Shown one piece after another: positions 4,311-63,362 of a stretch of DNA of 64,000 nt. The DNA is from Metabacillus sediminilitoris (GTDB taxonomy: Bacteria; Bacillota; Bacilli; Bacillales; Bacillaceae), in the NCBI RefSeq assembly GCF_009720625.1, contig NZ_CP046266.1:5313501-5377500 (forward strand), read 5' to 3'. The notes beneath the pieces are model-generated. The model was given only the letters and a program-made list of their open reading frames with translations, ran no database searches and had not been told where the DNA came from. Made by a program: the position numbers and the translations under genes. The stretch's first letter is position 1; each line of letters begins with the position of its first letter.

Positions 4311-4428
4311 ATGCGTAAGCGCCTTGCTAAATACCCCACATGCATAAGACGAGCAGGAAAAGAAGGTGTTCTTTGCCTTCATTTCCTGATTGACTTAGAC
4401 TTTTGGGTCTAGGCGCTGCAGCTAGACA
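4311..4428 (+). repeat. 120-bp palindromic repeat element, copy A
   Basis: This copy begins GCGTAAGCGCCTTG and ends GGCGCTGCAGCTAGACA, the two ends shared by the family. Inner arms CAGGAAA / TTTCCTG and the GAAGG / CCTTC hairpin top are intact. It sits between atpG and atpD, inside an operon that must be read through, and is written on the strand opposite to transcription. Confidence 0.85.
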
Positions 4429-4470
4429 CTAATACTAAGTAAAGACCGTTACTTAGACTTGTTAAAAAAC

Positions 4471-5328
4471 CTATTCTAACGCCGCAGCTCCGCCAACGAT
4501 TTCTGTGATTTCTTGTGTAATCGCAGCTTGACGTGCACGGTTGTATGTTAAAGTAAGTCCATTTATTAACTCTTTTGCATTATCGGTTGCGTTTTTCATC
4601 GCTTGCATACGTGCCGAATGCTCAGAAGCCTTACTATCAAGCAATGCTCCATAGATGAGACTTTCAGCATACTGTGGCAGCAACACTTTTAAAATTTCTT
4701 CTTGTTCTGGCTCAAATTCATATGATGTTATTTGCTTACCAGAAGAAATATTCGTTAACGGAAGAAGCTTCTTCTCAGTAACTTCTTGTTGTATTGCACT
4801 TACGAAGTGATTGTAATACATATATAATTCATCAAACGCTTCATCAGCGAACATGTTCACTGCATTACTTGCAATATCCTTAATCATTGAGAATGATAAA
4901 TCATCACCCATACCAATGATTTCTGAAATTACGTTCATATCACGTTTTTTGAAAAAGTCGCGGCCCATTCTACCAATTGCAATCACAACAAATTCATCAT
5001 TCGATTTATGTCGCTTTTGAATCGCTTGGTACGCAGCACGGATAACATTACTGTTAAAGGCTCCTGCTAAACCACGGTCAGATGTTATCACTAAATAGGC
5101 AGTACGTTTAACAGGTCTGCTTACTAGCATTGGATGACTTGCATCAGAACTACCATTTGCAATGCTGGCAACAACCTCTTGAATTTTTTCCATGTAAGGA
5201 ACAAATGCCTTCGCAGTTGCTTCTGCACGGTTTTTCTTCGAAGCAGATACCATTTCCATTGCTTTTGTAATTTGACTAGTCTTTTTCGTTGAATTAATTC
5301 TGTTTTTTATGTCACGTAATGATGCCAA
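4471..5328 (-). CDS. atpG: ATP synthase F1 gamma subunit
   Basis: Gamma is the rotor shaft inside the alpha3beta3 ring. The 285-residue protein begins [24 protein letters not shown], the conserved N-terminal helix. It ends with the coiled-coil segment [27 protein letters not shown] that inserts into the catalytic hexamer. The start is a TTG preceded by AAGGTGGTGA. Length agrees with Bacillus homologues. It lies 84 bases after atpA, with a small imperfect hairpin in between, and before the repeat-containing gap to atpD. Confidence 0.97.
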
Positions 5329-5412
5329 AGGTTCTCACCACCTTCGATTATTCTCTACTTAAACATGCTCGGTGAAAGCATTAGAAAGCCTTCACCTTTG
5401 CACAATTATTTA

Positions 5413-61062: not shown

Positions 61063-61259
61063 TTATATCCTTTTAAAACTATAGATAAATCTAGCAAAAA
61101 ATCAAGAAAAAAGTTTATGACTTTTGATCAAAATGTTTAAAATGCTTAAAAAGAACCCATAATGGCTAATATCTTAAAGTTCGGAGTTATTTTTGCCTAG
61201 CTCTGTATATTTTACAGTAGAGCTATGCTTTCTATTTTTAAAAGTTGGAGGTGAGCCAA

Positions 61260-63320
61260 ATGGATGTGATCACACCAAGGCGTATACGAATTACGTTAAA
61301 AACAATCCGCGCAATAACATTTATTAGTTTGCTATTATTGATCTTTTTTTCCACGGTCGTTCTTAGTATTGTTTTGTATGCAAAATGGCAAGGACCACCT
61401 TCTTTAACAGTTCCACAATCAACGATTATTTATGCAAGTGACGGGTCAAAGATTGGGGAATTGCATAATGGTCAAAAACGGTATTGGGTAAATCTTGATG
61501 ATATCTCTGAACATGTTCTGCAAGCTACTATCGCGATTGAGGACAGGAGCTTTTATGATCACCATGGTTTTGATTATAAACGAATTGCAGGTGCTGCATT
61601 GGCCGATTTGCGGGCGATGGCTAAGGTTCAGGGTGCAAGTACGATTACACAGCAATATGCTCGTAATTTGTTTTTGCAGCATGAAAAGACGTGGCAGCGA
61701 AAGGCGATGGAGGCATTTTATACAATTCGTCTTGAGCAAAATTATAGCAAGGACGAGATCTTAGAGGGGTATTTAAACACAATTTTTTATGGTCATGGTG
61801 TTTATGGGATCGAGGCTGCAGCTAATTACTACTTTGGTAAAAATGCCAGTCAATTAACATTAGCTGAAGCCTCGATGCTTGCAGGTATTCCGAAGGGACC
61901 AAATCTTTATTCTCCATATATCAATCAAGAAAAAGCGAAAGAGCGCCAAACGATTATTTTAAAAATGATGGCAAATGAGGGCTATATTACAGAGAAGCAG
62001 TTAGATGGTGCCTTACGTGAAAAACTTGTCTATACAACGAAGGAAGAAAAGGTCCAAAAAGGAATGGCTCCCTATTTTCAAGATGCTGTTATGAGTTCGT
62101 TAGCAATGGACTTACAAATGGACGAGGATATTCTCAAAACAAAGGGGCTAAAAATTTATACGACATTGGATCCTGACATGCAAAAAATCGCAGAAGAAAT
62201 TGTCGCTTCCTCTATTGAAAAAAAATCAGATATACAAGCTGGTTTTGTCGCAATGGATCCAAAAACAGGGTATGTGAAAGCATTAATCGGTGGACGTGAT
62301 TATGAAAAAAGTCCGTTTAACAGGGCGACACAAGCTAAAAGACAGCCAGGTTCAACGATCAAACCATTATTATATTATACAGCTATAAACAATGGCTTTA
62401 CACCTTCTACAGAGATGATGAGTGAACCAACAACATTCTCATATGATGATGGAAAGGCCACGTATAAACCAAGCAACTATAATGACTATTATGCGAATGA
62501 CTTTATCACCATGCTCCAAGCCATTGCATTGTCTGATAACATTTATGCAGTGAAAACACATATGTTCCTTGGTATGGATAAGCTCGTCAAATCTGGAGAA
62601 CAGTTTGGGCTGGATACGAAAATTAAGAAAGTCCCTTCAGCAGCGTTGGGCACATCACCAATTCGGTTAGTTGATATTGTAAATGCCTATGGAATGTTAG
62701 GAAATGGCGGAAAAAAAATTGAGCCTGCGTTTGTTACGAAGGTTGAAGCTGCGAATGGTGACGTTATCTATAAAGCTGAAAAGAATAAGGAACAAATTTT
62801 AAATGAGCAAGCTGCGTTTGTCACAACACATATGATGACAGGTATGTTCGATCCAAAGTTAAATGGATACACGTCTGTTACAGGACAAAGTATTGCGAAT
62901 ACCTTAACAAGGGACTACGCAGGAAAATCAGGCTCAACGTCAACAGACAGCTGGATGATTGGTTTTTCCCCACAAATCGTTGCAGGTGTTTGGACAGGTT
63001 ATGATAAAGGGAAATCAATTGATCTCGTCCAAGAACGAGGCTATTCAAAAACGATCTGGGCTCGTTTTATGGAAAAGGCATTGGAGGATGAATCTGTAAA
63101 GGCATTCCGCCCTCCAGACGGTCTTGTCGGGGTATACATTAATCCTGCCAGCGGAAAACTCGCTACAAAGGAATGCCCCGAAAAACGGCTAACCTATTAT
63201 GTTGAAGGCACTGAACCAACAGAATATTGTACAGAACATAGCACGGAAATGCCTAAAGAAAAGGAATCTAAACAAAAAGAAGATAGTTTGTTTGATAAGC
63301 TGTTTAAATGGTGGGATTGA
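61260..63320 (+). CDS. pbpG: Class A penicillin-binding protein PBP2d (PbpG)
   Basis: This bifunctional enzyme polymerises and cross-links peptidoglycan. In B. subtilis PBP2d acts in spore cortex and engulfment. The 686-residue protein has one N-terminal anchor helix (about 20-44), the GT51 glycosyltransferase motifs EDRSFYDHHGFD (about 94-105) and GASTITQQYARNLFL. The transpeptidase has SxxK in GSTIKP (about 369), SDN near 425 and KSGST near 562. The ATG at 61260 follows GGAGGTGA; an in-frame TTG upstream is part of the ribosome binding site. It is divergent from speE. Confidence 0.93.
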   Translation: MDVITPRRIRITLKTIRAITFISLLLLIFFSTVVLSIVLYAKWQGPPSLTVPQSTIIYASDGSKIGELHNGQKRYWVNLDDISEHVLQATIAIEDRSFYDHHGFDYKRIAGAALADLRAMAKVQGASTITQQYARNLFLQHEKTWQRKAMEAFYTIRLEQNYSKDEILEGYLNTIFYGHGVYGIEAAANYYFGKNASQLTLAEASMLAGIPKGPNLYSPYINQEKAKERQTIILKMMANEGYITEKQLDGALREKLVYTTKEEKVQKGMAPYFQDAVMSSLAMDLQMDEDILKTKGLKIYTTLDPDMQKIAEEIVASSIEKKSDIQAGFVAMDPKTGYVKALIGGRDYEKSPFNRATQAKRQPGSTIKPLLYYTAINNGFTPSTEMMSEPTTFSYDDGKATYKPSNYNDYYANDFITMLQAIALSDNIYAVKTHMFLGMDKLVKSGEQFGLDTKIKKVPSAALGTSPIRLVDIVNAYGMLGNGGKKIEPAFVTKVEAANGDVIYKAEKNKEQILNEQAAFVTTHMMTGMFDPKLNGYTSVTGQSIANTLTRDYAGKSGSTSTDSWMIGFSPQIVAGVWTGYDKGKSIDLVQERGYSKTIWARFMEKALEDESVKAFRPPDGLVGVYINPASGKLATKECPEKRLTYYVEGTEPTEYCTEHSTEMPKEKESKQKEDSLFDKLFKWWD

Positions 63321-63323
63321 TAC

Positions 63324-63362
63324 TAAAGCGGAAGCGCCTTGAACATCCCCGACATGCATGCC
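63324..63362 (+). repeat. Truncated repeat element, copy O
   Basis: Only the left end of the family (AAAGCGGAAGCGCCTTGAAC and CCCCGACATGCAT) is present, immediately after the pbpG stop. Confidence 0.7.

Follow-up and report, generated by a model that had tools for sequence, protein, structure and literature searches.

The closest described counterparts of the element reported here are the REPINs, the IS200/IS605 insertion sequences and the group IIC introns. The element is an imperfect hairpin of about 121 nt that recurs in a 64,000-nucleotide stretch of the Metabacillus sediminilitoris chromosome (the window, positions 5,313,501-5,377,500 of a single contig of 5,602,542 bp). PMC3116915 describes the REPINs, with their REP-associated tyrosine transposases (RAYTs), as dispersed extragenic hairpins without a gene of their own; their ends are conserved, compensatory changes keep the inner part paired, the putative intermediate has a 5' single-stranded tail, and some copies form tandem arrays. 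The element resembles them in these points. Of the REPIN features tested, compensatory change in the inner hairpin was found. However, the element displayed no GTAG/CGTC tag beside its stem (tags as given in the part of PMC3733652 at hand), there is no RAYT/Y1 gene in this genome, and its insertions lie beside intrinsic terminators. The element thus behaves like a REPIN, yet lacks two features of membership, the cognate RAYT and the end tags.

IS200/IS605 elements have no terminal inverted repeats, cause no target duplication and carry hairpins near their ends (PMC7290912, in the portion available). The element appears to share these traits; its insertions showed no clear duplication, none going beyond an ambiguity of 0-3 nt. 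The IS200-type copies of relatives were found at a target of hairpin plus T-run, in the same polarity as the element. The differences are that the target of the element is a hairpin with T-run and not a proven tetranucleotide, that its ends are unlike those of the Y1 loci checked, and that no left-end hairpin beyond the main one was seen. According to PMC8919778, the insertion sites of group IIC (bacterial-C) introns lie immediately behind intrinsic terminators and are strand-biased. The element shares this site (59 of 153 clusters versus 14 of 153 on the other side), but no ribozyme domain was shown for it and it has no reverse transcriptase. It also differs from miniature inverted-repeat elements of the DDE type, as its ends are asymmetric without terminal inverted repeats and no clear target duplication was seen at the junctions.

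The Bacillus repeats bcr1, Bant-1, Bhal-1 and Bhal-2 are short, dispersed and have predicted folds (PMC2267715, as far as available); bcr1 (147-167 bp) and Bant/Bhal (72-76 bp) are set apart from the element by their listed sizes alone. An Rfam scan of the window detected only two leader RNAs over the curated cut-off and none across the hairpin unit. The end sequences of the element occurred in none of the open-licence PMC papers searched, and no title or abstract start among the matches listed describes it. An original prediction, made from the letters of the window, had attached no known family name to the hairpin; this holds, and no name was found within the searched Rfam and open-licence literature.

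Copies of the hairpin and covariation of its arms

The copies were confirmed with a repeat search, a shuffle-controlled pattern search and a covariance model (CM) trained on nine window copies. The 3'-end motif had 13 matches in the window at three or fewer mismatches versus 0.87 expected, and 13 was reached in 0 of 100 shuffles. Twelve of these matches are copies, and the one at 9711 is not. The CM also identified 12 copies among 22 rows, the remaining 10 rows being opposite-strand shadows of the same palindromes. The repeat search added four truncated copies (three of family D4 and one of D2), so that the total of 16 bears out the earlier claim of at least 13 dispersed copies. The copies are listed by window position and strand:

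4308-4428 (+): copy A, full hairpin unit, then tail-like CTAATACTAAGTA; CM 114.3 bits, sequence
31330-31451 (+): copy B, full unit, then tail-like CTAAAACTAAGTA; CM 137.2 bits
31464-31582 (+): copy C, altered 5' end, tandem to B; CM 110.4 bits
33196-33331 (+): copy D, variant unit carrying one more hairpin module (CGCGACGTCCTGTCGC) close to its 3' end; CM 33196-33318, 63.4 bits, sequence to GACA at 33331
33337-33457 (+): copy E, full unit, tandem to D; CM 142.9 bits
33462-33588 (+): copy F, divergent, tandem to E; CM 27.8 bits, 3' motif with two mismatches
41088-41130 (+): truncated copy, 5' part; direct repeat D4 41080-41130, 71%
41911-42020 (+): divergent full-length copy; CM 34.8 bits
48799-48919 (+): copy I, full unit; CM 139.4 bits
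48922-49041 (+): copy J, full unit, tandem to I with a 2-nt spacer; CM 130.2 bits
49043-49085 (+): truncated third unit in the array of I and J; direct repeat D4 49035-49085, 63%, sequence
51273-51393 (+): copy L, full unit; CM 144.4 bits
51396-51462 (+): truncated second unit, tandem to L; direct repeat D2 51396-51462, 93%
59826-59946 (-): copy N, full unit; CM 143.8 bits, context at genome position 5373326
60939-61061 (-): copy O, full unit, then tail-like CAAAACTAAGTACAA; CM 132.4 bits, flanks
63323-63365 (+): truncated copy, 5' end only; direct repeat D4 63315-63365, 67%

A CM search of the whole genome, proposed earlier as a check, gave 117 matches, partly opposite-strand shadows or weak. 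We retained 84 copies (77 at 51.8 bits or more and seven at 45-51 bits), which form 65 clusters. The 3'-end pattern alone matched 64 times, and its reversed control had no match.

The clusters were unevenly placed on this chromosome. Forty-nine of the 65 were located in the origin half, and no cluster of at least 45 bits was present between about 2.03 and 3.12 Mb, where one weaker copy was seen at 2.86 Mb. A concentration in the origin half was not apparent by eye in the relatives G030 and G039.

The unit is the hairpin with fixed ends, often followed by an AT-rich tail of about 40 nt, and no gene was seen inside it. The bottom strand reads GAAAAGCG...GCTAGACA and the top strand TGTCTAGC...CGCTTTTC; the ends, (TWA)GAAAAGCG and GCTAGACA, are asymmetric. 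The tail on many copies, the tandem arrangement of some and the swapped or nested inner modules of others depart from the picture given by the original prediction. One common tail was shared by four copies of the relative G005 (L269, L277, L326 and L328), and their likeness stopped at an identical base; tails of a second type have CTTACC or CTTACCTGT at their end. Units without a tail occurred as tandem arrays with short linkers (ATTA or AT, for example) and also nested within another repeat or within the element itself.

The alignments for covariation were built by sequence alone. The own-genome set held 29 of the 30 best matches (L046, a tandem copy, was excluded), and the other-genera set held 28 copies plus one window copy, with units of 112-132 nt (the nested L127 was excluded from the 29 listed). 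In the own genome 15 of 37 pairs changed on both sides, with 81 double-change cells versus 23.0 in shuffles (0 of 500 reached 81), and 98.6% of the pair cells were standard versus 31-41% when one arm was slid by 1-3 columns. In the other genera 22 of 35 pairs changed on both sides, with 151 double-change cells versus 52.3 (0 of 500) and 93.9% of cells paired versus 34-46% slid; the shuffles leave shared ancestry in place, the slid control retains it yet uses a fold predicted from the same alignments, and the cell and cluster statistics of this work are only partly free of it. The arm pairs quoted in the original prediction are present in the sequences, and its claim of compensated changes was confirmed in both sets above the shuffles. 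A fold maintained by compensated changes is supported by these alignments.

The original prediction left it open whether the fold acts in DNA or RNA. Among the pairs predicted on both strands, 2776 cells were Watson-Crick, 47 G-U, 24 A-C and 77 otherwise mismatched, and 311 double changes were counted. The ratio of G-U to A-C had a pooled p of 0.009 with cells that are not independent, and none of the per-set values (0.10, 1.0 and 0.0501) was significant at 0.05. Pairing was restored with little wobble, which is what DNA would be expected to show. Wobbles this scarce are more in keeping with a DNA hairpin than with a conserved RNA, which narrows the question a little toward DNA and leaves RNA as the possible but less favored form.

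The covariation might also arise mainly from template switching or arm-to-arm repair at the palindrome, with mobility conferred by unrelated machinery. Many double changes are indeed transversions at mostly Watson-Crick pairs (37 of 81 cells in set A2 and 66 of 136 in set A3), mismatched intermediates are few, and the pairing is near strand-symmetric. However, a GNA/GNA internal loop near the base, a 5-nt one-sided bulge and a GTTCTTT-type loop recurred in both the own-genome and the other-genera alignments. The GNA/GNA loop and the bulge are features that copying between arms would be likely to remove, and these mismatches persist in fixed places. They argue against arm copying as the sole cause, and we consider this explanation unlikely. 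The family offers a natural system for asking why bacterial DNA hairpins covary, whether by RNA selection, by arm repair or by a transposase that moves folded strands only.

Mobility and the landing site beside terminators

The 3'-end pattern was searched in 60 relatives and had at least one match in 43 and at least 10 in 22; the reversed control had one match in some of these genomes, so single matches may be chance. The exact 5' end was found, among the matches listed, in at least nine genera, namely Neobacillus, Cytobacillus, Mesobacillus, Peribacillus, Lederbergia, Schinkia, Pseudalkalibacillus, Salirhabdus and Anoxybacillus. As judged from these matches, the family spans many Bacillales genera. 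Copy 51273-51393 had no match in the plasmid or phage collections at E 1e-5, and carriage by plasmids or phages was set aside for this reason; six stretches in viral contigs carry the exact 3' end.

Mobility was analyzed by seeking nine G005 loci in the relatives G006, G019 and G003, the last as outgroup. Six loci (L267, L268, L269, L270, L272 and L274) had at least one ortholog without the element, and five of these six were also empty in the outgroup. L276 had a shrunken copy in G006, and L277 and L278 were outside the alignments. Among 13 aligned pairs, 11 lacked the element (some with diverged junctions), and the other two held a degenerate copy (L297) and a shrunken copy (L287), respectively. 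The cleanest junctions of empty sites (L270/L296 and L272/L289) showed 0-3 nt of ambiguity and no longer duplication, and nested insertions resembled them. The tail of about 40 nt was also missing from the empty sites; therefore tail and hairpin probably arrived together there. What is new here, as shown by comparison of orthologous sequences, is that the hairpin family is mobile and enters new sites without clear target duplication. The earlier idea that the element spreads is thereby borne out by the empty sites in sister species.

The landing site was analyzed in 153 clusters with 170-nt flanks, in three sets of 58, 42 and 53 clusters. A terminator aimed at the element was detected on the tail side in 59 clusters (18, 19 and 22 by set) and on the other side in 14 (7, 4 and 3; Fisher p 1.4e-9). 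In G005 a stem was located 33-49 nt past TAGACA, just beyond the tail, in 16 of 42 clusters, and 15 of 20 detected stems begin 40-49 nt past it. By comparison of the two flanks, a favored site is shown to be the T-run side of a predicted intrinsic terminator, with the top strand reading in terminator direction.

This site also accounts for the closeness to stop codons. Sixteen of the 25 own-genome clusters with an upstream sense gene start 0-5 nt past its stop codon, and four of the nine remaining sense clusters lie within another repeat. Starts at -1 to 8 nt from the stop were found in 19 of 39 sense contexts of other genera and 12 of 26 of G005, with stop distances outside the own genome taken from an automatic caller of open reading frames (ORFs), spurious ORFs included. 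Native genes of the window have a median stop-to-stem gap of 8 nt (16 element-free genes of 53 called), and the starts at 0-5 nt follow from the terminator target together with this short gap. The stop codon itself was rejected as target on the same ground; TGA made up only two of 31 adjacent stops. Copy N starts 5 nt past an ORF stop, and a hairpin with T-run comes after it.

With replication origins placed from dnaA, 175 of 217 clusters in five genomes (48/65, 57/69, 20/23, 25/27 and 25/33) had their top strand on the lagging-strand template. A bias of 75% is the assumed expectation from gene and terminator orientation. Between convergent genes, gene orientation gives no bias of its own. Between divergent genes, the top strand was lagging at four of five sites in the own genome and three of three in G005. 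A strand bias beyond gene orientation is suggestive, not established, and it was not accepted as independent proof of replication coupling, most of it being explained by gene and terminator orientation.

Candidate movers

The reading that we prefer, at slightly less than even confidence, is that the element is REPIN-like, carries no gene and is moved in trans, in the form of folded single-stranded DNA, by a Y1-type mechanism, perhaps by an IS200-type transposase. At replication the lagging-strand template would be single-stranded, and a terminator hairpin with its T-run could serve as docking site. An IS200-type Y1 (HUH) transposase supplied in trans may then cut beside the T-run and join the folded top strand. 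The hairpin of the element with its TTTTC end would re-create the docking site and give rise to head-to-tail arrays. Copies with unpaired arms would be immobile, so that moving copies display compensated changes, and landing between stop codon and terminator would spare genes and let copies accumulate.

The original prediction suggested a non-autonomous element moved in trans, possibly by a RAYT. The first part agrees with a gene-less, spreading element; the RAYT as mover was not supported as worded. No match to Y1_Tnp (PF01797) was found in the own genome, and a RAYT acting in trans there was rejected for this reason. No GTAG/CGTC tag was present, and only one of 30 Y1 loci from relatives (stretches of about 3 kb) has the element. 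At that locus, L249, an IS200 sits in the end of the element, directly behind its own hairpin and T-run. IS200-type copies were picked by similarity to this IS200. Their left end was recognizable at eight of nine loci, and all eight (L240, L241, L244, L246-L249 and L251) had a terminator-like hairpin ending 13-17 nt before it in the same polarity, a count made with no shuffled control. Because the IS200-type copies share this insertion geometry, a wider Y1-type mechanism is still the leading guess. A limited search found no literature on the use of a hairpin plus T-run target by IS200, which may still be known.

When a full G005 copy was compared by blastn with 30 Y1 loci and 30 maturase loci, the only matches were the element beside the IS in L249 and a 22-nt match at E 0.28. 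In a scan for an autonomous partner, the tail-end pattern was found at 39 places in four relatives; six of those in G005 and G009 had no listed hairpin beside them, and these six were further or degenerate copies, with no autonomous partner among them. A Y1_Tnp match was present in 44 of the 60 relatives. Y1 or group II maturase presence was tried as a predictor of copy number and rejected, with no relation seen by eye in the 60 relatives.

Several observations weigh against the Y1-type reading. The own genome, as stated, has no Y1_Tnp match, and matches to Y1 and to group II maturase are both missing from the copy-rich relatives G017, G019, G023, G030 and G033; the enzyme would then have been lost, or another kind of enzyme would be at work. 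The element ends are unlike the ends of the Y1 loci checked. Terminators in the stated polarity were detected at only 59 of the 153 clusters; opposite-sense T-run hairpins occurred on the tail side in 39 (9, 13 and 17 by set), partly the same two-way terminators, and top-sense hairpins aimed away were found on the other side in 23 (8, 7 and 8). The strand bias is mostly as gene and terminator orientation predicts, and only G030 deviates from 75% (p 0.02). Between convergent genes the top strand was lagging at 11 of 11 sites in the own genome and at only eight of 13 in G005. The wobble asymmetry of 47:24, if anything, points to the bottom strand. Tailed and tail-less copies still need one shared explanation.

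A further point of this kind is that group IIC introns have the same target and the same orientation to the terminator as the element and make no clear target duplication. The hairpin could accordingly travel as RNA, placed at terminators in trans by the reverse transcriptase of a group IIC intron or by an enzyme related to it. The target and strand choice of these introns are on record (PMC8919778, part available), group II introns occur in relatives, and two intron copies of G009 stand behind a hairpin and T-run by eye. However, no group II match was found in the window at gathering score, in four element loci at E of 1 or less, or in 17 loci at E of 0.1 or less, and the same tool detects true group II introns. 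Maturase matches were present in 25 of the 60 relatives and missing from many copy-rich ones, and wobble pairs are rare. Movement by such an enzyme therefore seems improbable, about on a par with arm repair. In the own genome two weak group II maturase matches were found. Two nearly identical group II introns (L376 and L377; RF02005 and RF00029) were seen there at 2.37 and 2.47 Mb.

Integrases recognize folded attC sites, and another class of transposase or recombinase might similarly recognize the folded ends of the element. Neither tested family (Y1 and group II maturase) tracks copy number, which would fit such an enzyme, but these were the only two families compared; this explanation appears somewhat less likely than either of the former two. 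Least likely of all is selection of fold and post-stop position for a conserved role of the RNA in 3' untranslated regions, where it would protect mRNA ends or act in regulation, since 31 of 56 own-genome contexts have no upstream sense gene, copies are missing at orthologous places in sister species and stop proximity follows from the terminator target, even though many sense copies between stop codon and terminator would be transcribed and G-U is in modest excess over A-C.

Nested modules and neighboring features

In nine loci viewed from other genera, larger units had kept the outer ends, with inner parts swapped and mostly still paired, or with a second whole element inside. Bacillaceae-1 RNA (RF01690), listed in the available part of PMC2864571, is one such module. 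Its 67-nt motif was nested in some copies, with four matches of at least 35 bits: in L127, L320 and L336 it lies between the two ends of the element, and in L160 it follows an intact 5' end, the 3' end there being degenerate. It is nevertheless a separate module, as by eye, among 17 of 21 loci, about six were flanked by element-like ends and about eight belonged to rRNA operons. Bacillaceae-1 RNA looks like a mobile module itself. It was also dispersed on its own (among L380-L400), with up to 66 per genome (G042). Covariation alone is thus no proof of functional RNA, as a described structured-RNA family has members inside these elements.

A broader and more doubtful proposal is that these are 'terminator-homing' single-strand mobile hairpins across one bacterial order. 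Terminators would be the common dock of three unrelated movers (IS200-type Y1, group IIC introns and the gene-less family), and the family would carry its own dock, stay foldable via transposition and have picked up modules such as Bacillaceae-1 RNA. If true, part of an Rfam RNA family would be traveling DNA. The results further suggest that intrinsic terminators offer the mobile DNA of Bacillales, IS200-type elements included, a safe landing site in common.

A second dispersed repeat (...GAGACTCCTGCGGGAGCAGCGG...) holds the element at one internal point in four copies, L218, L220, L050 and L231 (genome positions 1405982, 5309755, 4998483 and 4828253, respectively). Either the composite spreads or that point is a target. 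A TPP riboswitch was seen a short way downstream of one element copy (L225:1709-1818).

The two leader RNAs of the window were:

31181-31213 (-): L31-Firmicutes ribosomal protein leader, RF03156; Rfam scan
41185-41268 (-): PyrG leader, RF02371, 69.6 bits; Rfam scan

The ORF at 41317-41898, adjoining the PyrG leader, encodes acidic repeats and is RNA polymerase delta-like by eye. The regions 48-443 and 35402-35794 of the window are 75-80% alike (repeats D8 and D9), suggesting two paralogous genes.

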